From: Paludibacteraceae bacterium
Lineage (GTDB): Bacteria > Bacteroidota > Bacteroidia > Bacteroidales > Paludibacteraceae
DNA length: 55,051 nt
Reading direction: 5' to 3'
NCBI GenBank assembly: GCA_024401555.1
Contig: JAKSKV010000020.1
Span: forward strand, 1-55,051
The notes beneath the pieces were generated by a model. That model did no database searches. It saw only the letters and a program-made list of their open reading frames with translations, and had not been told where the DNA came from. Shown in pieces: positions 21,091 through 29,408 of the stretch (position 1 is the first letter of the stretch; the number at the start of each line of letters is the position of its first letter). The translations under genes were made by a program, and so were the position numbers.

Positions 21091-21129
21091 GAACAAACTC
21101 GAGGTCATGCTTGGGTTTGTTCTTTTTTA
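21091..21129 (+). terminator. Intrinsic terminator after the mini-protein gene
   Basis: GAACAAAC (21091-21098) pairs with GTTTGTTC (21115-21122), followed by TTTTTT. It separates the HU/mini-protein unit from rng and may attenuate read-through into rng, for which I see no separate promoter. Confidence 0.75.
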
Positions 21130-21148
21130 TGTAACAAATTTTTTAATT

Positions 21149-22753
21149 ATGAATAGCGAATTAGTTATTGACGTTCAAGCATCGGAAATATCCATCGCCC
21201 AACTCGACGACAAAAAGTTGGTGGAGGTGAACAAGGATAAGCGCGATAGCAAATTCTCCGTCGGCGACATATACCTCGCCAAGGTGAAGAAGCTGATGCC
21301 AGGGCTCAATGCGGCATTCGTTGACGTAGGCTACGAGAAGGGAGCATTCCTCCACTACCAAGACCTTGGGCCACACTTCCTGACGCTCAATTCGTTCATG
21401 AAGGACGCCCTCAGCGGAAAGAAAAAGGGACTCACCCTCTCTCGCTACCAAATTCAAAAGGAGATCCAGAAGGGCGGACAGATCACCGATTTGCTCCAGA
21501 CCGGACAAGAGGTGCTCGTACAGATCGCCAAAGAACCGATCTCCACAAAAGGTCCAAGACTTACAGCGGAAATCTCCATCGCCGGCCGTTTCTTGGTCTT
21601 GATCCCGGGTGCGGACAAGGTATTTGTCTCCCAAAAGATCAAATCCAACGAGGAGCGCAACCGTATCAAGCAAATCGTCAGAAGCGTGAAACCTAAAAAC
21701 TTCGGTGTCATCGTACGTACCGTAGCGGAGGGAAAGAGCGTGGAGGATGTCAGCGCCGAAATCCAAATGTTGGTCGGCCGCTGGGAAGCTGGAGTCAAGA
21801 AGATGAGCAGTGAAGGCAAATTGCCGAAACTGATCCATGAGGAGTTGGGCCGTACCGTCTCCATCCTCAGAGACATCTTTAATCCTTCATTCGAGAGCAT
21901 CCACGTAAACGACAAGACCGTTTACAACGAGGTGCTTGAATATGTGGGCGAGATCGCACCGGAGAAGAAGGGAATTGTCAAACTATACAATAACGACACC
22001 CCTATTTTCGACCATTTCGGTGTAACCAAGCAGCTGAAATCGCTCTTCGGCAGAATAGTCTCTTTCAAGAACGGAGCCTATCTCTACATCGAAAAGACAG
22101 AGGCGATGCACGTCGTGGATGTCAACAGCGGTAACAAGTCCAAAGCAGGCAATGACCAAGAGGCCAACGCCATCGAGGTAAACCTCGCCGCAGCCGACGA
22201 ATTGGCAAGACAATTGCGTTTGAGAGACCTTGGAGGCATCATCGTAGTCGATTTCATCGATATGCTCAAGGCGGAGAACCGCCAGGCCCTCTACGAGCGA
22301 ATGAAGGCAAACATGGCAAACGACCGCGCAAGACACAACATCTTGCAACTCAGCAAGTTCGGTCTGATGCAAATCACACGTCAACGGGTGCGTCCTGAGA
22401 TGCACATCAACACAGAGGAGGTTTGTCCGACGTGTATGGGCAAAGGTGTTGCCCAACCATCCATCTTATTCGTCGACACATTGGAGAGTAAGATCGATTA
22501 TTTAGTGAATGTCTTGGAAATCAAGAAGTTCAAACTTTATGTCCACCCTTATGTGGCGGCTTATATCAACAAAGGCTTCCCATTCTTCACCCTGAAATCG
22601 AAGTGGAGTCGCAAATACCATTGTTCGTTTAAGCTGGTAGAGTCACAAAATTTCCCGTTCCTTCAATATAAATTCTACGATGAAAAAGGCAACGAGGTGG
22701 ACTTGACAGAGGAGTCTGAAACGATGCGTGAGGTCGAGGACGACGAGGATTGA
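21149..22753 (+). CDS. rng: Ribonuclease E/G family endoribonuclease
   Basis: 534 aa from ATG 21149 (MNSELVIDVQASEISIAQL). The S1 RNA-binding domain lies near the N-terminus (GDIYLAKVKKLMPGLNAAFVDVG), then the catalytic DNase I-like region with HVVDVNSGNKSK and GGIIVVDFIDM, whose aspartates bind the metal, and the zinc link CPTCMGKG. It matures 16S rRNA and starts mRNA decay from 5'-monophosphate ends. The length is that of RNase G, without the long RNase E tail. The terminator just after the gene (22790-22825) is the first of three near-identical copies; the other two lie in the accessory island. Confidence 0.93.
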   Translation: MNSELVIDVQASEISIAQLDDKKLVEVNKDKRDSKFSVGDIYLAKVKKLMPGLNAAFVDVGYEKGAFLHYQDLGPHFLTLNSFMKDALSGKKKGLTLSRYQIQKEIQKGGQITDLLQTGQEVLVQIAKEPISTKGPRLTAEISIAGRFLVLIPGADKVFVSQKIKSNEERNRIKQIVRSVKPKNFGVIVRTVAEGKSVEDVSAEIQMLVGRWEAGVKKMSSEGKLPKLIHEELGRTVSILRDIFNPSFESIHVNDKTVYNEVLEYVGEIAPEKKGIVKLYNNDTPIFDHFGVTKQLKSLFGRIVSFKNGAYLYIEKTEAMHVVDVNSGNKSKAGNDQEANAIEVNLAAADELARQLRLRDLGGIIVVDFIDMLKAENRQALYERMKANMANDRARHNILQLSKFGLMQITRQRVRPEMHINTEEVCPTCMGKGVAQPSILFVDTLESKIDYLVNVLEIKKFKLYVHPYVAAYINKGFPFFTLKSKWSRKYHCSFKLVESQNFPFLQYKFYDEKGNEVDLTEESETMREVEDDED

Positions 22754-22768
22754 TCCTTAACCCCCTAT

Positions 22769-22826
22769 CGCAGCTCTACAGAAAACATCGGGCGGTGAAT
22801 CGAATGGTTCGCCGCCCTTTTTATTG
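22769..22826 (+). repeat. Terminator-containing direct repeat, copy 1 (after rng)
   Basis: Runs from CGCAGCTCTACAG to TTTTTATTG and contains the 10-bp hairpin GGGCGGTGAA/TTCGCCGCCC (22790-22799 and 22808-22817) with loop TCGAATGG. Copy 2 (26705-26761) differs by one T in the T run; copy 3 (27953-27996) keeps the last 44 bases. Confidence 0.9.
22790..22825 (+). terminator. Intrinsic terminator of rng
   Basis: A 10-bp stem with one G-T pair, 8-base loop TCGAATGG, and a T5 run. It is the left boundary of the accessory island. Confidence 0.85.
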
Positions 22827-24139: not shown

Positions 24140-24272
24140 GTGAATTAAGCATTCCTATTTGCACATTACAATAATTCTCCCTAACTTGCGGGAAATAAAA
24201 CATTAAACGAAAAGAATTATAACAAAAGAGAATATTTTAAATTAACATATTATAAATTAAAGCATTAGCTAT

Positions 24273-24280
24273 TATTCTTG
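24273..24280 (+). promoter_or_regulatory. Possible -7 box for the structured RNA
   Basis: TATTCTTG, one mismatch from TAnnTTTG. Transcription from it would begin about 24287, just before the first pairing arm at 24292. No clear -33 box. Confidence 0.4.
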
Positions 24281-24286
24281 TCCAAA

Positions 24287-24471
24287 TCAAAAGCCTGCAA
24301 ACTGATGATTTAGCATTATCGGATAAACGCTAATCCACGGGAAGCGTGCGCTCTCGTATCACTTGCTTAGAGTTGATGCTCATACCGTTTAGGTGTGGGC
24401 TAATCTAGCAAGTGAGCGGGGTTCTTGCAGGCTCCCCGTGGACAAGATAGAAAGGCTCGCACCTTTCTTTT
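24287..24471 (+). ncRNA. Candidate structured RNA with H-type pseudoknot
   Basis: The sequence supports one compact fold. Helix A pairs 24292-24300 with 24425-24433 (9 bp, perfect). Helix B pairs 24334-24341 with 24435-24442 (8 bp, perfect). B opens inside A and closes after it, so the two form a pseudoknot whose 3' strands are one base apart and could stack. Between A and B is a small hairpin (24310-24314 with 24329-24333). Between B and A' is a long arm: 24349-24352/24415-24418, 24360-24367/24407-24414 (8 bp) and 24378-24386/24392-24400 (9 bp, loop GTTTA). An alternative hairpin CGGGG/CCCCG (24417-24421, 24434-24438) competes with helix B, so a switch is conceivable. The RNA ends in an intrinsic terminator. 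It matches no family I recognise. It could be a free RNA or a regulatory leader of the methylase. Confidence 0.6.
24449..24471 (+). terminator. Intrinsic terminator ending the structured RNA
   Basis: AGAAAGG (24449-24455) pairs with CCTTTCT (24462-24468), loop CTCGCA, followed by TTT. It lies 49 bases before the methylase start and could act as an attenuator. Confidence 0.65.
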
Positions 24472-24484
24472 AGCCGATAGTGAA

Positions 24485-24518
24485 GATTGATAGTGTGATG
24501 TGAATAACGCTATCAATC
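24485..24518 (+). promoter_or_regulatory. Hairpin or operator abutting the methylase start codon
   Basis: GATTGATAG (24485-24493) and CTATCAATC (24510-24518) are perfect 9-bp complements and end one base before ATG 24520. A GATAGTG direct repeat (24476-24482 and 24490-24496) overlaps the left arm. It could hide the ribosome site in RNA or bind a regulator as DNA. Confidence 0.5.
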
Positions 24519-24519
24519 T

Positions 24520-25599
24520 ATGGCAGGAAATAAAAACCTTCATGCGGCGAACAAAGCGAAGAAGGATGAGTTCTACACGCAACTATCCGACATTGCCAAC
24601 GAGTTAAAACACTACAAACAGCACTTTGCAGGAAAGACAGTGTTTTGTAACTGCGACGACCCTTACGAAAGCAACTTTTTCAAATACTTTGCTCTCAACT
24701 TCAATGTTTTGGGACTGAAAAAACTGATTGCCACCTGCTACGACGGTTCGCCCGTAGCTGCAACACAAATGCTCCTTTTTGAACCTGAGGCACCATACGG
24801 CAAACAAGAAAAAACACGCATGCCACACAAAATAGTGATTACCGAAGTACGCGATGTGAACGGAGATGGAGCAACTGATCTTGCCGATGTGGAGTGGCTA
24901 ATCAAGAATGACAAAAATGTACTTACAACCCTGCAAGGTAATGGCGATTTCCGATCCAAGGAATGTGTTGAATTACTAAAAGAAGCCGATATTGTGGTTA
25001 CAAATCCGCCTTTCTCGTTGTTTCGTGAATATGTGGCGCAATTAATAGAGCATAATAAGAAATTCCTTGTTATCGGTAATCAGAATACAATTCAGACAAA
25101 AGAAATATTTCCATTGTTTAAGGAAAACAAAATGTGGCTTGGATTTGGTTTTAAGGGAGGAGCAGGGCATTTTTATAGTGTTTATGAAGATACGGCATCG
25201 GCCGGTGATCATCGTGAGGGTATGATTCGAGTTTCAGGTGTCAATTGGTTTACTAATCTTTCACACGATAAAAGAATTGAGCATCTTGACTTATATAAAA
25301 CATATTCTCCTGAAGAGTATCCCAAATACGACAACTACGATGCAATTAACATAGATAAAACAGCTGATATACCTGTTAATTACGATGGTATAATGGGTGT
25401 ACCTATTACTTTTTTAGATAAGTATTGTCCAGAACAATTTGAAATAATATGGCAAGCTACAGGAAACACACGGGCATGTGCTCCTAAAGAGATATTACAG
25501 GAATTGAACTATAAAAAGCACCCAGAAGATAGAGGAGGATGTCCTGTAATTAATGGGAAAAGACTATATGGGAGGATTTTAATCCGCAAAAAACAATAA
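24520..25599 (+). CDS. EcoRI-family adenine-specific DNA methyltransferase
   Basis: 359 aa. The N-terminus LHAANKAKKDEFYTQLSDIANEL and the central catalytic motif TNPPFSLFREY (NPPF at 162-165) match the EcoRI methylase family (PF13651), which uses S-adenosylmethionine to make N6-methyladenine. Further family segments are VIGNQNTI, FGFKGGAGHFYS and GVPITFLDKYCPEQFEI. No EcoRI-like endonuclease is present; the next gene, 4 bases on, is a DUF262-HNH nuclease that probably forms a restriction pair with it. The coding sequence is clearly more AT-rich than the flanking housekeeping genes, a sign of transfer. No promoter is visible between the upstream terminator and the start. Confidence 0.9.
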   Translation: MAGNKNLHAANKAKKDEFYTQLSDIANELKHYKQHFAGKTVFCNCDDPYESNFFKYFALNFNVLGLKKLIATCYDGSPVAATQMLLFEPEAPYGKQEKTRMPHKIVITEVRDVNGDGATDLADVEWLIKNDKNVLTTLQGNGDFRSKECVELLKEADIVVTNPPFSLFREYVAQLIEHNKKFLVIGNQNTIQTKEIFPLFKENKMWLGFGFKGGAGHFYSVYEDTASAGDHREGMIRVSGVNWFTNLSHDKRIEHLDLYKTYSPEEYPKYDNYDAINIDKTADIPVNYDGIMGVPITFLDKYCPEQFEIIWQATGNTRACAPKEILQELNYKKHPEDRGGCPVINGKRLYGRILIRKKQ

Positions 25600-25603
25600 A
25601 ATC

Positions 25604-26701
25604 ATGGAAATAACACTAACACCCATCCGCATCGGAGATTTATATGCGGGATTTAAAAATAGTGAAGAAGAAGGCGTATTTGGCTATGGTGGCAAACTGA
25701 ATATTCGCCCCAAGTACCAACGCGAGTTTGTTTACAGCGAAAAGCAACAAGTGGCGGTAATTGATAGTATCCGCAAAGGGTTTCCGCTCAATGTCATGTA
25801 TTGGGTAGAAAACGAGGATGGAACGTTCGAACTACTCGATGGTCAACAACGTACAATGAGTATCTGCGAGTTCTTGAGCGGTAACTTTTTTGTCGATTGG
25901 AACGGTACGCTTAAAAGTGGCGTAAACCTTACCCCTGACGAACGAAGAAAATTCGAGGATTATCAATTGATGGTATATATTTGTCGTAATGGTAGCGACG
26001 ACGAAAAAATCAATTGGTTCGAAACAATAAATATTGCAGGAGAAAAACTAACCAAGCAAGAGATTCGTAATGCAATATATTGCGGTGAATGGGTTACTGC
26101 AGCCAAACGCAAATTTAGCAAAACAGGCTGCGTGGCTTACAAAATCGGCAGCGATTATATGAGCGGTTCACCCATTCGTCAGGATTATCTGGAGACAGCA
26201 ATAGCGTGGATCAACAACGGTAAAATAAGAGAATATATGGCCATACATCAGCACGATAGTAATGCTGACGACCTATGGCTCTACTTTCAGAACGTAATCC
26301 AATGGGTACAAGCTAAGTTCTCCAAAAAACGTAGAGAGATGAAACAAGTGGCTTGGGGCGAACTCTACAACAAACACAAGGATGACAAGCTTGACGCAAC
26401 CGAGCTTGAGAAAAGAATTGCCGAGCTTATGAAAGATAGTGATGTGCAGAAAAAATCTGGCATCTACGCATACGTTTTGGACGGAGACGAGCACCACCTT
26501 GGCATCCGAGCTTTCGACGATAACACCAAGCGAGAAGTGTACGAGAGGCAGAATGGTATTTGCAAAAATTGTGGCAAGCACTTTGAAATCGAGCAAATGG
26601 AAGCCGACCATATCACTCCATGGAAAGAGGGAGGACGCACCATCGCCGAGAACTGCCAAATGCTCTGCCGCGAGTGCAATAGGCGGAAGAGTGATAAATA
26701 A
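25604..26701 (+). CDS. DUF262 and HNH endonuclease domain protein
   Basis: 365 aa. The N-terminal DUF262 (ParB/sulfiredoxin-like) domain has the signature LLDGQQRTMSICEFL (DGQQR at 79-83), which in GmrSD-type enzymes binds or hydrolyses nucleotide. The C-terminal HNH domain (about 310-365) has ICKNCGKHF, MEADHITPW and MLCRECNRRK, giving two CxxC pairs and the catalytic DH. This layout is found in modification-dependent or nucleotide-dependent restriction nucleases. It starts 4 bases after the methylase stop, so the two are co-translated. Its last codons are duplicated as a fragment at 29390-29454. A copy of the rng terminator follows. Confidence 0.88.
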   Translation: MEITLTPIRIGDLYAGFKNSEEEGVFGYGGKLNIRPKYQREFVYSEKQQVAVIDSIRKGFPLNVMYWVENEDGTFELLDGQQRTMSICEFLSGNFFVDWNGTLKSGVNLTPDERRKFEDYQLMVYICRNGSDDEKINWFETINIAGEKLTKQEIRNAIYCGEWVTAAKRKFSKTGCVAYKIGSDYMSGSPIRQDYLETAIAWINNGKIREYMAIHQHDSNADDLWLYFQNVIQWVQAKFSKKRREMKQVAWGELYNKHKDDKLDATELEKRIAELMKDSDVQKKSGIYAYVLDGDEHHLGIRAFDDNTKREVYERQNGICKNCGKHFEIEQMEADHITPWKEGGRTIAENCQMLCRECNRRKSDK

Positions 26702-26704
26702 CCC

Positions 26705-26761
26705 CGCAGCTCTACAGAAAACATCGGGCGGTGAATCGAATGGTTCGCCGCCCTTTTATTG
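26705..26761 (+). repeat. Terminator-containing direct repeat, copy 2 (after HNH gene)
   Basis: Same as 22769-22826 except for one T fewer in the T run. The hairpin arms are 26726-26735 and 26744-26753 with the same loop, so it also ends the methylase-HNH transcript. Confidence 0.9.
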
Positions 26762-26909: not shown

Positions 26910-27923
26910 ATGAGTAAAAAAAACAAAGAAATACTAGTTACCCTACTAAAACTGCATAAGGAGTTGGGTATTACGGAGCAGATAGACTATGAGAAGTTCT
27001 ATCTATACAGCATCATTACACATTCTACCGCTATAGAAGGAAGTACCGTGACAGAGGTGGAGGCTCAGTTACTGTTCGACGAGGGAATCACCTCAAGCAA
27101 AAGAACACTGATAGAACAGATGATGAACCTTGACCTAAAGACTGCTTATGACTACGGCAAAGAGTGGATACAAAAACACGAGGACATAACCGTAGATAGT
27201 CTTATTCTTCTTGCGTCAAAGGTTATGGCCCGCACAGGAGGAGAATACCATCCAATAGCAGGAGATTTCTCGGCAGCGAAGGGAGAGTTGAGAAAACTAA
27301 ATGTAACAGCAGGCCTAGGAGGAAAGTCCTATATGAACTACCAGAAAGTGCCAGCCAAATTGGAGTCGTTTTGTAAAGAGTTGAACAGACGCAGGAAGTG
27401 CATTGATGCCAATGATGTGACTGCAATATATGACCTAAGTTACTGGGCACATTTTGAGTTAGTGACCATTCATCCTTGGGCAGACGGCAACGGACGAACA
27501 TCCCGATTGCTGATGAATCTTCTACAAATGGAGTATGGAGTGTTGCCAACCAAGGTATTGAAACAAGACAAAGCAGACTATATTCAGGCTCTTATTGATT
27601 CGAGAGAGACAGAGGACATAGATATATTTCTTGATTGTATGAATTTGCTCCATTGTAAACACATACAACATGATATTGACAATTACAAGGAATCTGTCGG
27701 TGATAATATCGGCGATAAATCAGCAGGATTCAAGAAAATCGGTGATAAAAAAGCTGCAATATTGTCATTTATCGCCGATAACCCTAATGTCAAAGCAAGC
27801 GTTATCGCCGATCATGTGGGGTTGAAAGCATCCCGTACTCGAGACTACCTCGCGGAACTTGTGAAAGATGGCAAGGTGGCTACCGAAGGAGCGAACAAAA
27901 ACAGAACATATAAAATAATATAA
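26910..27923 (+). CDS. Fic family protein (AMP-transferase type) with C-terminal winged helix
   Basis: 337 aa. The Fic core motif HPWADGNGRTSR (188-199) keeps all catalytic and phosphate-binding residues; Trp replaces the usual Phe. The inhibitory helix motif STAIEGS (39-45) lies before the core, as in class II Fic proteins, whose glutamate blocks ATP binding until released. The C-terminus (LSFIADNPNVKASVIADHVGLKASRTRDYLAELV) is a winged-helix domain. Fic enzymes transfer AMP to hydroxyl groups of target proteins; the target here is unknown. It stands alone between two terminator repeats with its own promoter. It may be a toxin-like or defence-linked module, but no separate antitoxin gene is present. 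Confidence 0.9.
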   Translation: MSKKNKEILVTLLKLHKELGITEQIDYEKFYLYSIITHSTAIEGSTVTEVEAQLLFDEGITSSKRTLIEQMMNLDLKTAYDYGKEWIQKHEDITVDSLILLASKVMARTGGEYHPIAGDFSAAKGELRKLNVTAGLGGKSYMNYQKVPAKLESFCKELNRRRKCIDANDVTAIYDLSYWAHFELVTIHPWADGNGRTSRLLMNLLQMEYGVLPTKVLKQDKADYIQALIDSRETEDIDIFLDCMNLLHCKHIQHDIDNYKESVGDNIGDKSAGFKKIGDKKAAILSFIADNPNVKASVIADHVGLKASRTRDYLAELVKDGKVATEGANKNRTYKII

Positions 27924-27952: not shown

Positions 27953-27996
27953 AAACATCGGGCGGTGAATCGAATGGTTCGCCGCCCTTTTTATTG
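27953..27996 (+). repeat. Terminator-containing direct repeat, copy 3 (after Fic gene)
   Basis: Identical over 44 bases (AAACATCGGGCGG to TTTTTATTG) to the rng copy. Hairpin arms are 27960-27969 and 27978-27987. Bases upstream of 27953 differ, so the shared block is shorter than in copies 1 and 2. Confidence 0.9.
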
Positions 27997-28142: not shown

Positions 28143-29408
28143 ATGATAGACAAAAATACAGTCAAACGAATAATAATTGAAAATCAGCGTATTGCATCAA
28201 ATATCACACTCAACGAAAGAGAATATGACTTTGAGGATAATTTGAACTATGTGTTGATTGGACTCAGACGTGCAGGCAAATCCTATCTATTGTATCAAAG
28301 GATGCAGCAACTAATGAAGTCTGGTCATTCGGTTGACGAATTTCTATATTTTAACTTCGAGGACGAACGTCTTATTGGCATGATGGCCTCCGACTTGGAT
28401 ACTATTCTTTCATCTTATAGGGAGATGTATGACTACAAACCATTTGTGTTCTTGGACGAGATTCAAATAATAGACGGATGGGAGAAATTTGCTCGCAGAC
28501 TTGCCGATCAAGGGTATAGGGTATATATCACAGGCAGCAACGCGAAAATGTTAAGTTCAGAGATAGCAACAACGCTTGGCGGAAGATACCAAATAAAACG
28601 TGTGTTCCCTATGTCGTTCCGAGAGATGCTGAGGGCCAAAGGTGTTGATGTCGAAGATAAAAATTTCGAATTTAAGAACCAAGATTTGATCAATAAGTAT
28701 TTGGAGGAGTATTTTACATTTGGAGGTCTTCCTGAAATTGGCGGAGTGTTAGACAAAAGAGGTTGGCTTAGCGGTCTCTTTTCAAAAATTTTCTTCGGTG
28801 ACCTGATTGCCCGTTATTCCATACGAAACGACAAGTCAATTAAGTATGTGGTACAGAAGATTGCGGAAAGTGTAAAGCAACCTGTGTCGTACAACAGAAT
28901 TGCCAACATGGTGTCGAGCATAGGAAAAAAGATTTCTACAGATACAGTAATTGATTATTTGGATTATATGAACGAATCGTGGTTGCTTATCCCCATAGAG
29001 AATTTTACAGCCAAATTTGTAGAGAAAGCATCCAACAAGAAGTACTATTTCATAGACAATGGAATACTAAATTTGTTTCTGACTGATCCCAATACGAGTT
29101 TACTAGAAAATATGGTGGCTGTCAGCCTCTACAAGCAATATGGTGATAATGTCACTTTTTATAATACCAACATAGAAGTGGATTTTTATTTGCAGGATCA
29201 AAAGACCGCTATCCAGGTAAGCTATTCGCTCAAAGATGAGGAGACTCGCAAAAGAGAGGTTCGCGCACTTGAAAAATTATCTTCTACAGTTGAAATAGAT
29301 CATCTATTTATCATCACCATGTATGATGAAGAGGTAATAAATACCATCCATAGCGTAATTAACGTGCTTCCCTTGTGGAAGTGGCTTTTGAGGGTAAAAC
29401 TGTGCTGA
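28143..29408 (+). CDS. AAA (AAA_14/DUF4143) ATPase 2, altered C-terminus
   Basis: 421 aa. Walker A GLRRAGKS at 40-47, Walker B FVFLDE at 101-106 (DEIQIIDGWEKF), arginine-containing TGSNAKMLSSEIATTLGGR, then the DUF4143 domain (YSIRNDKSIKYVVQKIAESVKQPVSYNRIAN) and its nuclease-like end (NIEVDFYLQDQKTAIQVSYS). It belongs to the same broad family as ATPase 1. The natural end seems to be near PLWKWLL; the last residues RVKLC are read from a fragment of an HNH gene (29390-29454), so a recombination replaced the original stop. The protein is probably still functional. Its promoter carries the second 33-bp-spaced array. Confidence 0.87.
   Translation: MIDKNTVKRIIIENQRIASNITLNEREYDFEDNLNYVLIGLRRAGKSYLLYQRMQQLMKSGHSVDEFLYFNFEDERLIGMMASDLDTILSSYREMYDYKPFVFLDEIQIIDGWEKFARRLADQGYRVYITGSNAKMLSSEIATTLGGRYQIKRVFPMSFREMLRAKGVDVEDKNFEFKNQDLINKYLEEYFTFGGLPEIGGVLDKRGWLSGLFSKIFFGDLIARYSIRNDKSIKYVVQKIAESVKQPVSYNRIANMVSSIGKKISTDTVIDYLDYMNESWLLIPIENFTAKFVEKASNKKYYFIDNGILNLFLTDPNTSLLENMVAVSLYKQYGDNVTFYNTNIEVDFYLQDQKTAIQVSYSLKDEETRKREVRALEKLSSTVEIDHLFIITMYDEEVINTIHSVINVLPLWKWLLRVKLC

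Follow-up and report, generated by a model that had tools for sequence, protein, structure and literature searches.

The window, a 55,051-nt stretch of DNA from a Paludibacteraceae bacterium, contains a potentially structured RNA directly upstream of a gene for an EcoRI-type DNA methylase. A sequence-only reading had confined this RNA to positions 24287-24471 and left two options, a free small RNA of a methylase-HNH defence module or an attenuating leader of the methylase gene. What, then, does this RNA do, and where does it end? Comparison of related loci showed that the conserved leader unit extends from 24261 to the ATG at 24520 (approximately 260 nt), starting approximately 25 nt upstream of the interval. 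The interval itself is probably the major part of a 5' leader of this length that precedes a predicted restriction-modification operon. Judging from sequence comparisons, there is also a better than even chance that we are dealing with a cis-acting RNA switch, likely in two steps, for restriction and surface-modification genes.

The operon of the window consists of two genes:

24520..25599, + strand: EcoRI-type adenine DNA methyltransferase (PF13651, E = 1.1e-144)
25604..26701, + strand: protein with GmrSD_N and HNH domains, predicted restriction enzyme (Pfam; PADLOC REase_II, 2.7e-124)

The pair corresponds to MTase_II and REase_II in PADLOC, and fits a predicted type II restriction-modification operon. 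A terminator-like 53-nt perfect direct repeat (22769-22821 and 26705-26757), flanks the island made up of the AAA gene, the RNA, the methylase and the HNH protein; its first copy stands behind gene 21107-22753, which we take to encode a ribonuclease G/E. Since this repeat bounds the island and a third copy of 44 nt (27953-27996) is located behind a Fic gene, the arrangement suggests stepwise insertions at one spot. Downstream of the restriction operon are a Fic-domain protein with a winged-helix end (26910-27923) and a second AAA_14/DUF4143 ATPase (28143-29408), perhaps a defence-island setting.

The interval folds with an energy of -78.9 kcal/mol, versus -52.4 kcal/mol in dinucleotide shuffles (z = -5.98), and 0 of 200 shuffles were as stable. 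The two interleaved helices from which a pseudoknot had been proposed (P1 and PK below) are perfect complements, as is the hairpin suggested to compete with the second one (24417-24421/24434-24438), and the interior arm of 8 bp plus 9 bp is present as P4 and P5 (24378-24386/24392-24400). The core elements are listed below, with z values from a swap test in which the duplex energy of a leader's own strands is compared to that of strands exchanged between leaders. The test was performed on 94 leaders less than 85% identical and on 25 leaders less than 62% identical, sets that were thinned by identity and ignore phylogeny.

24276..24283, + strand: 5' strand of P0, pairs with 24440-24447 (z = -18.6, 94 leaders; 99.6% of cells paired, for the five pairs within the model range)
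24440..24447, + strand: 3' strand of P0, of which 24440-24442 are common to the 3' strand of PK
24292..24300, + strand: 5' strand of P1, the 9-bp helix of the sequence-only reading (perfect; z = -23.8, 94 leaders)
24425..24433, + strand: 3' strand of P1, pairs with 24292-24300
24302-24309/24315-24322, + strand: P2 hairpin (82.4% of cells paired, 13 members)
24334..24341, + strand: 5' strand of the pseudoknot helix PK, the 8-bp helix of the same reading (perfect; z = -12.4, 94 leaders)
24435..24442, + strand: 3' strand of PK, pairs with 24334-24341
24360..24367, + strand: 5' strand of P4, pairs with 24407-24414 (z = -29.2; both-side changes at 8 of 8 pairs)
24407..24414, + strand: 3' strand of P4, pairs with 24360-24367

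In a structure-blind MAFFT alignment of 13 members, the helices jointly displayed changes on both sides at 18 of 50 pairs, versus 12.0 +/- 1.7 in shuffles. These 13 members, aligned blind to structure, were also the source of a covariance model, R1, to which 99 distinct leaders were aligned. P0, PK and a third pairing described below (b:c), none of which is part of R1, carried both-side changes at 23 of 24 pairs, with 91.6% of cells paired; for P1, P4 and P5 the value was 91.3%, and the alignments of P5 and of the local terminator-like hairpin lean on the model. In the 25-leader set, 0 of 10000 permutations reached the observed value for P0, P1, PK, P4 and the pairings a:b, b:c and 5'E:l introduced below. 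Chance structure is ruled out by the both-side changes relative to shuffles, by the swap tests and by the covariation of helices absent from R1. Both helices of the earlier observation are real, and that observation is incomplete, not wrong. Family members have a shorter PK than the window does: 63 of 99 leaders lack the innermost pair (24341/24435), and the five inner pairs occur in 78.9% of cells. For the competing hairpin, the paired fraction is 86.4% of cells, with weak covariation. We note that P0 and PK both contain 24440-24442, and thus cannot both be complete.

The sequence-only reading had found no RNA family that fits, and a comparison with Rfam, which reportedly includes the families from a study of 224 candidate RNAs, agreed with this. 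The window gave 0 matches at the gathering score, the best sub-threshold match within 24140-24530 had E = 0.99, and in 18 loci with relatives only RNase P and two tRNAs were detected; on the strength of these three scans a known RNA family is ruled out. Homologues do exist elsewhere. Among the best 80 of 377 loci with methylase relatives (genome contigs), 12 showed blastn similarity to the leader immediately before the methylase gene, in one case weakly. The window's own genome contains a second copy of the leader. R1 matched directly before the methylase in 45 of the 80 loci (E <= 0.0044). All 45 are among the 62 loci titled Bacteroidales or subgroups. A few loci have absent or short upstream sequence (e.g. 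L071, L078). The 18 EcoRI-type methylase loci titled Clostridia, Lentisphaeria, Kiritimatiellae, Opitutales or Saccharibacteria gave no full-length match before the methylase; in three of them, a short stretch not adjacent to the gene partially matched the P5 region.

Whole genomes gave a similar picture, with R1 matches in 25 of 61 genomes of relatives (E <= 1e-3), in 84 of 250 genomes of the family sample and 21 of 344 of the order sample (E <= 1e-5), and in 2 of 345 phylum genomes, the second of which was weak (36.8 bits); the own genome is counted in each. In these samples, the RNA is found almost only in Bacteroidales and is nearly confined to this one order. A diverged copy (39 bits) occurs in the cultured strain Marseilla massiliensis An824 (L037). 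The own genome carries three copies (C73, i.e. the window, C1:122810-123011 and C92:24201-24413), and a nuclease homologue is present further downstream of the second copy. Blastn with the 380-nt window leader produced no match among phages or plasmids, and the leaders of two relatives none among plasmids. A core pattern search in viral contigs found no match; of three further motif patterns used in the phage and plasmid check, two had 0 matches and one had 2. Among 11 methylase loci on viral contigs, a weak match ahead of the gene was seen in one (L253, 23.9 bits). A phage or plasmid element was rejected, given the lack of blastn matches among phages and plasmids and of the core pattern in viral contigs.

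In order to identify the genes behind the leader, we considered the 112 distinct places of at least 48 bits in the family and order samples. Of these, 97 were fetched and, with three places of 43-48 bits, make up a set of 100; the window and 14 places that were not fetched again all have an EcoRI-type methylase. The first downstream gene was an EcoRI-type methylase in 52 of the 100 places (two with broken frames), and a homologous methylase-nuclease pair was present in 45 of 50 methylase-first places. Other restriction-modification genes came first in 16 places: MmeI type (4), N6_N4 methylases of type II/III (4), N6_Mtase of type I/IIG (3), D12 (2), Tsp45I (1), m5C plus Eco57I (1) and ResIII-HNH (1). 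Envelope enzymes accounted for 18 (EptA-like sulfatase fold 9, acyltransferase 4, glycosyltransferase 3, DUF2334 2), small proteins of 68-93 amino acids for 10, large proteins without any family for 2, and no or no recognised gene for 2. The 48 non-methylase places were assigned by Pfam in 30 cases, and otherwise by phmmer clusters or, for the small proteins, by eye. Of 10 restriction genes tried, PADLOC supported 9; the exception, L152, had no match. Three of the five small proteins run matched an HTH family, one of them below the cut-off; the match of glycosyltransferase L183 in Pfam was likewise below the cut-off. In NCBIfam, L174 was nearest to phosphoethanolamine transferases, far below the cut-offs, and L186 leaned weakly towards lipoteichoic acid synthase. 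In nineteen genomes, leaders precede genes of more than one category, and one of the genomes (G561) has five copies.

The RNA is thus not methylase-specific: the proposed link to a methylase-HNH module is not supported, since strong members also precede other restriction-modification, envelope-modifying and small HTH-like genes, and the EcoRI-type methylase loci of other phyla lack it. The same distribution bears on protein autoregulation, in which the methylase would bind its own leader. This would agree with the 52 of 100 places that precede the EcoRI-type methylase family, but 48 precede other genes or none recognised; we regard such autoregulation as extremely improbable and rejected it, the RNA not being limited to methylase genes.

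Some individual places merit description. Two leaders (L192, G264:C135; L190, G258:C16) stand before broken EcoRI-type methylase frames, perhaps decaying restriction systems, and a 254-nt leader match at L240 (G011:C291) has no clear reading frame directly behind it. L152 and L224 are related proteins of 829 and 772 amino acids behind a leader, without Pfam match and, for L152, also without NCBIfam or PADLOC match; they are possibly an undescribed restriction or defence protein.

The 3' half of the leader contains a strand with two possible partners:

24378..24386, + strand: strand a, the 5' strand of P5 (a:b z = -14.2; control a:c z = 0.1)
24391..24407, + strand: strand b, 24391-24400 plus extension 24404-24407, the partner of either a (P5) or c
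24448..24464, + strand: strand c, 24455-24464 plus terminator 5' arm 24448-24451, pairs with b and its extension
24449-24455/24462-24468, + strand: terminator-like hairpin (both-side changes at 6 of 7 pairs, in an alignment that leans on the model; swap z = -5.1)
24464..24471, + strand: U-run, seen in the sequence

Strand b, the 3' side of P5, can also base-pair with the terminator-like hairpin, namely with its loop and a portion of its 3' arm, and the extension of b pairs with the 5' arm of this hairpin. Over the 94 leaders, b:c reached z = -16.0 in the swap test; in the 25-leader set, the control a:c value was reached in 1837 of 10000 permutations, and that of the local hairpin in 3 of 10000. 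The b:c pairing was formed in 96.4% of cells and the extension in 90.7% (99 leaders). Thus a:b and b:c, which exclude each other and include the terminator region, both coevolve, as in attenuators. An intrinsic terminator had been predicted to close the region: the hairpin and U-run are present, whereas a strict scan for the consensus detected no terminator on the same strand of the window.

Because b:c occupies both arms of the short hairpin, and this hairpin also covaries, we read b:c as an antiterminator and the short hairpin as the terminator. The opposite polarity is a tentative alternative. Here the long b:c pairing would be the terminator stem, c would invade P5 via the unpaired extension of b, and the gene would be turned on by a sensor that keeps P5 together. 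Genes are switched on by a sensor-held hairpin in this manner in the ZTP and fluoride riboswitches. The median length of b:c is 17 pairs, with 9 or more pairs in 92 of 94 leaders; in 66 of 94, the 9 nt behind the stem contain at least 6 T. In 11 of 94 leaders, the local hairpin fails to reach -5.5 kcal/mol, a further point in favour of this polarity. Against it, the terminator loop would measure approximately 50 nt or more, and the local hairpin covaries too. The summed energies of the two states do not decide the polarity, since the figures cover different stretches. The reading of b:c as an antiterminator is retained below.

Three elements outside the core connect the RNA to its surroundings:

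24245..24252, + strand: A+T-rich element ACATATTA, a possible core promoter, which recurs upstream of most of the leaders inspected
24261..24279, + strand: 5' element (5'E), GCATTAGCTATTATT and neighbours, coevolves with 24482-24502
24482..24519, + strand: start-codon hairpin l:r (24484-24493/24510-24519), whose left arm and loop also pair with 5'E

The l:r hairpin reaches the start codon and coevolves (z = -11.6, n = 90); in 23 members with unusual arms, its energy is -8.4 kcal/mol, versus -5.6 +/- 0.5 kcal/mol. The pairing of 5'E with 24482-24502 (5'E:l), which in its canonical form includes a U-G wobble, gave z = -6.9 over 94 leaders, -4.8 over 33 leaders with an unusual 5' element, and -4.8 and -4.2 over sets of 52 and 25 distant leaders. 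Controls with a reversed 5'E yielded z = -1.4 for the 94 leaders and -0.3 and -1.7 for the 52- and 25-leader sets, the latter value being reached in 487 of 10000 permutations; a control with a more upstream segment gave 0.8 and 0.7. The 5'E:l effect is smaller than that of the other helices. As coevolution is seen both within the start-codon hairpin and between its left arm and the 5' end of the RNA, the RNA and the gene appear to share a transcript. Of the two original options, the attenuating leader is supported, both by the exclusive coevolving pairings at the terminator and by the pairing of the RNA 5' end with the start-codon hairpin.

An unlikely alternative is a trans-acting small RNA, free and approximately 210 nt long, that ends at the U-run. 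Its 5' end would pair with the start-codon hairpins of mRNAs of the family, the neighbouring gene being only one target. The terminator-like end would suit such an RNA, as would the complementarity of 5'E to start hairpins, the several copies per genome and the 32-nt start hairpin that is identical in two copies of the own genome. However, a constant distance of approximately 40 nt before unrelated genes and an exclusive pairing at the terminator are needs of a leader, not of a trans-acting RNA. In 92 of 94 leaders, the match is followed at 28-100 nt (median 38.5) by a reading frame on the same strand, its start being taken as the first ATG that lies at least 26 nt away and opens 60 codons. 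This fixed orientation is also at odds with an invertible DNA cassette, in which 5'E and l would be recombination sites. Restriction and surface genes are classic phase-variable genes, and the leader has imperfect inverted ends approximately 230 bp apart, but no inverted copy was seen among 100 places and the internal helices covary as RNA. We consider phase variation by such a cassette most improbable, and rejected it on the basis of the single orientation in 92 of 94 leaders and the lack of an inverted copy among the 100 places.

The 5' motif is nearly private to this RNA. In 24 genomes chosen as RNA carriers, GCATTRRCTATTATT occurs at 39 sites, and at 34 of them a model match follows after 2-3 nt. 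Among the five remaining sites, the first stands ahead of a diverged copy (G134:C9:22685, 15.0 bits). A second (G196:C10, L279) belongs to a leader copy of 10.8 bits without its 3' half, terminator included, that continues into a DNA-methylase-like frame, and is a possible natural always-on variant. Two sites (G134:C9:21608, L281, and C92:25374-25388 of the own genome, L265) precede short-leader genes without structured RNA, each approximately 1 kb before an RNA copy, and the fifth (G019:C29) is inside an apparent coding stretch. Because two short-leader genes carry the motif without the RNA, it may also serve as a promoter, operator or start region; ACATATTA is also found upstream of two genes without the RNA. 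The promoter signals of this phylum differ from those of sigma-70, according to a Bacteroides thetaiotaomicron transcriptome paper (PMC7366714), so that a sigma-70 scan of the window says little. It is conceivable, if improbable, that a single regulator binds 5'E and the start hairpin as DNA operators, with the intervening RNA being an element of its own. The motif before two genes without RNA and the small HTH-like genes among the targets would agree with operators. In diverged members, however, 5'E and the left arm change in concert, and the U-G wobble in the canonical pairing would be unneeded by a repeated DNA site.

For the two-step leader, which remains our preferred reading, we infer from these patterns a mechanism that covers transcription start, termination, read-through, the direction of control, sensing and the effect on translation. 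Leader transcription would start just before the GCATTAGC element. In the first step, whose pairings come from coevolution, a choice would be made between a transcription stop and read-through before the methylase gene. With b paired to a (P5), the terminator-like hairpin would be free and RNA polymerase would be halted at the U-run; with b paired to c, both terminator arms would be occupied and transcription would continue. The sensor that would bias the choice of b is predicted to lie in the P0/P1/PK pseudoknot and the P4-P5 arm; its signal could be a metabolite, a protein or the folding rate. In the second step, 5'E of the read-through RNA would pair with the left arm of the start-codon hairpin, which would free the right arm and the AUG. 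There is no clear ligand candidate, since the target genes share no pathway.

The envelope genes presumably serve phage resistance, and many of the genes behind the leader would likely protect the cell from viruses. A wider proposal, which we regard as speculative and rather unlikely, is a dedicated RNA-controlled defence regulon of Bacteroidales. One leader class would couple restriction systems of most types with enzymes that modify phage-exposed envelope sugars and lipids, and would sense infection or a common cell state. Each terminated leader would in addition use its 5' end in trans to target the start-codon hairpins of the remaining members, and all resistance layers of a cell would thereby switch together. 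Little is known about how restriction-modification systems are switched on safely, or whether different layers of phage resistance are controlled jointly. An RNA leader shared by most restriction types and envelope-modifying genes in one order offers a single handle on likely resistance genes. It could represent a new class of riboswitch, whose gene set would be unexpected, and is a candidate natural control element for Bacteroidales engineering.

Searches of open-access papers, judged by titles and abstract openings, revealed no RNA leader of restriction or envelope genes in Bacteroidales. ZTP/pfl and fluoride riboswitches are pseudoknotted leaders in which one strand is shared by an upstream hairpin and a terminator or antiterminator, with a U-run before the gene. 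The leader described here resembles them in these three respects, its terminator being a putative one, but differs from them in sequence and fold (no Rfam match), in its restriction, envelope and HTH-like targets, and in the additional pairing of its 5' end with the start-codon region. Invertible promoters are likewise short regulatory cassettes before surface and restriction genes of Bacteroidales; unlike these, the leader was seen in no inverted orientation, and its control elements covary as RNA. The Bacteroidales-1 and Bacteroides-1/-2 motifs are also candidate structured RNAs of the same order (PMC2864571); the interval produced no match to them in the Rfam scans. The word "restriction" is absent from the main text of that article (PMC2864571), as it is from that of the transcriptome paper (PMC7366714). 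In the literature covered, the shared regulator of restriction-modification systems is a protein, RptR, described as a repressor of restriction-modification islands (PMC12255303). As in the present case, one regulator class is common to restriction-modification systems in many genomes; however, RptR is a DNA-binding protein tied to type I systems in the abstract of that report (PMC12255303), whereas here an RNA leader precedes most restriction types as well as envelope genes.
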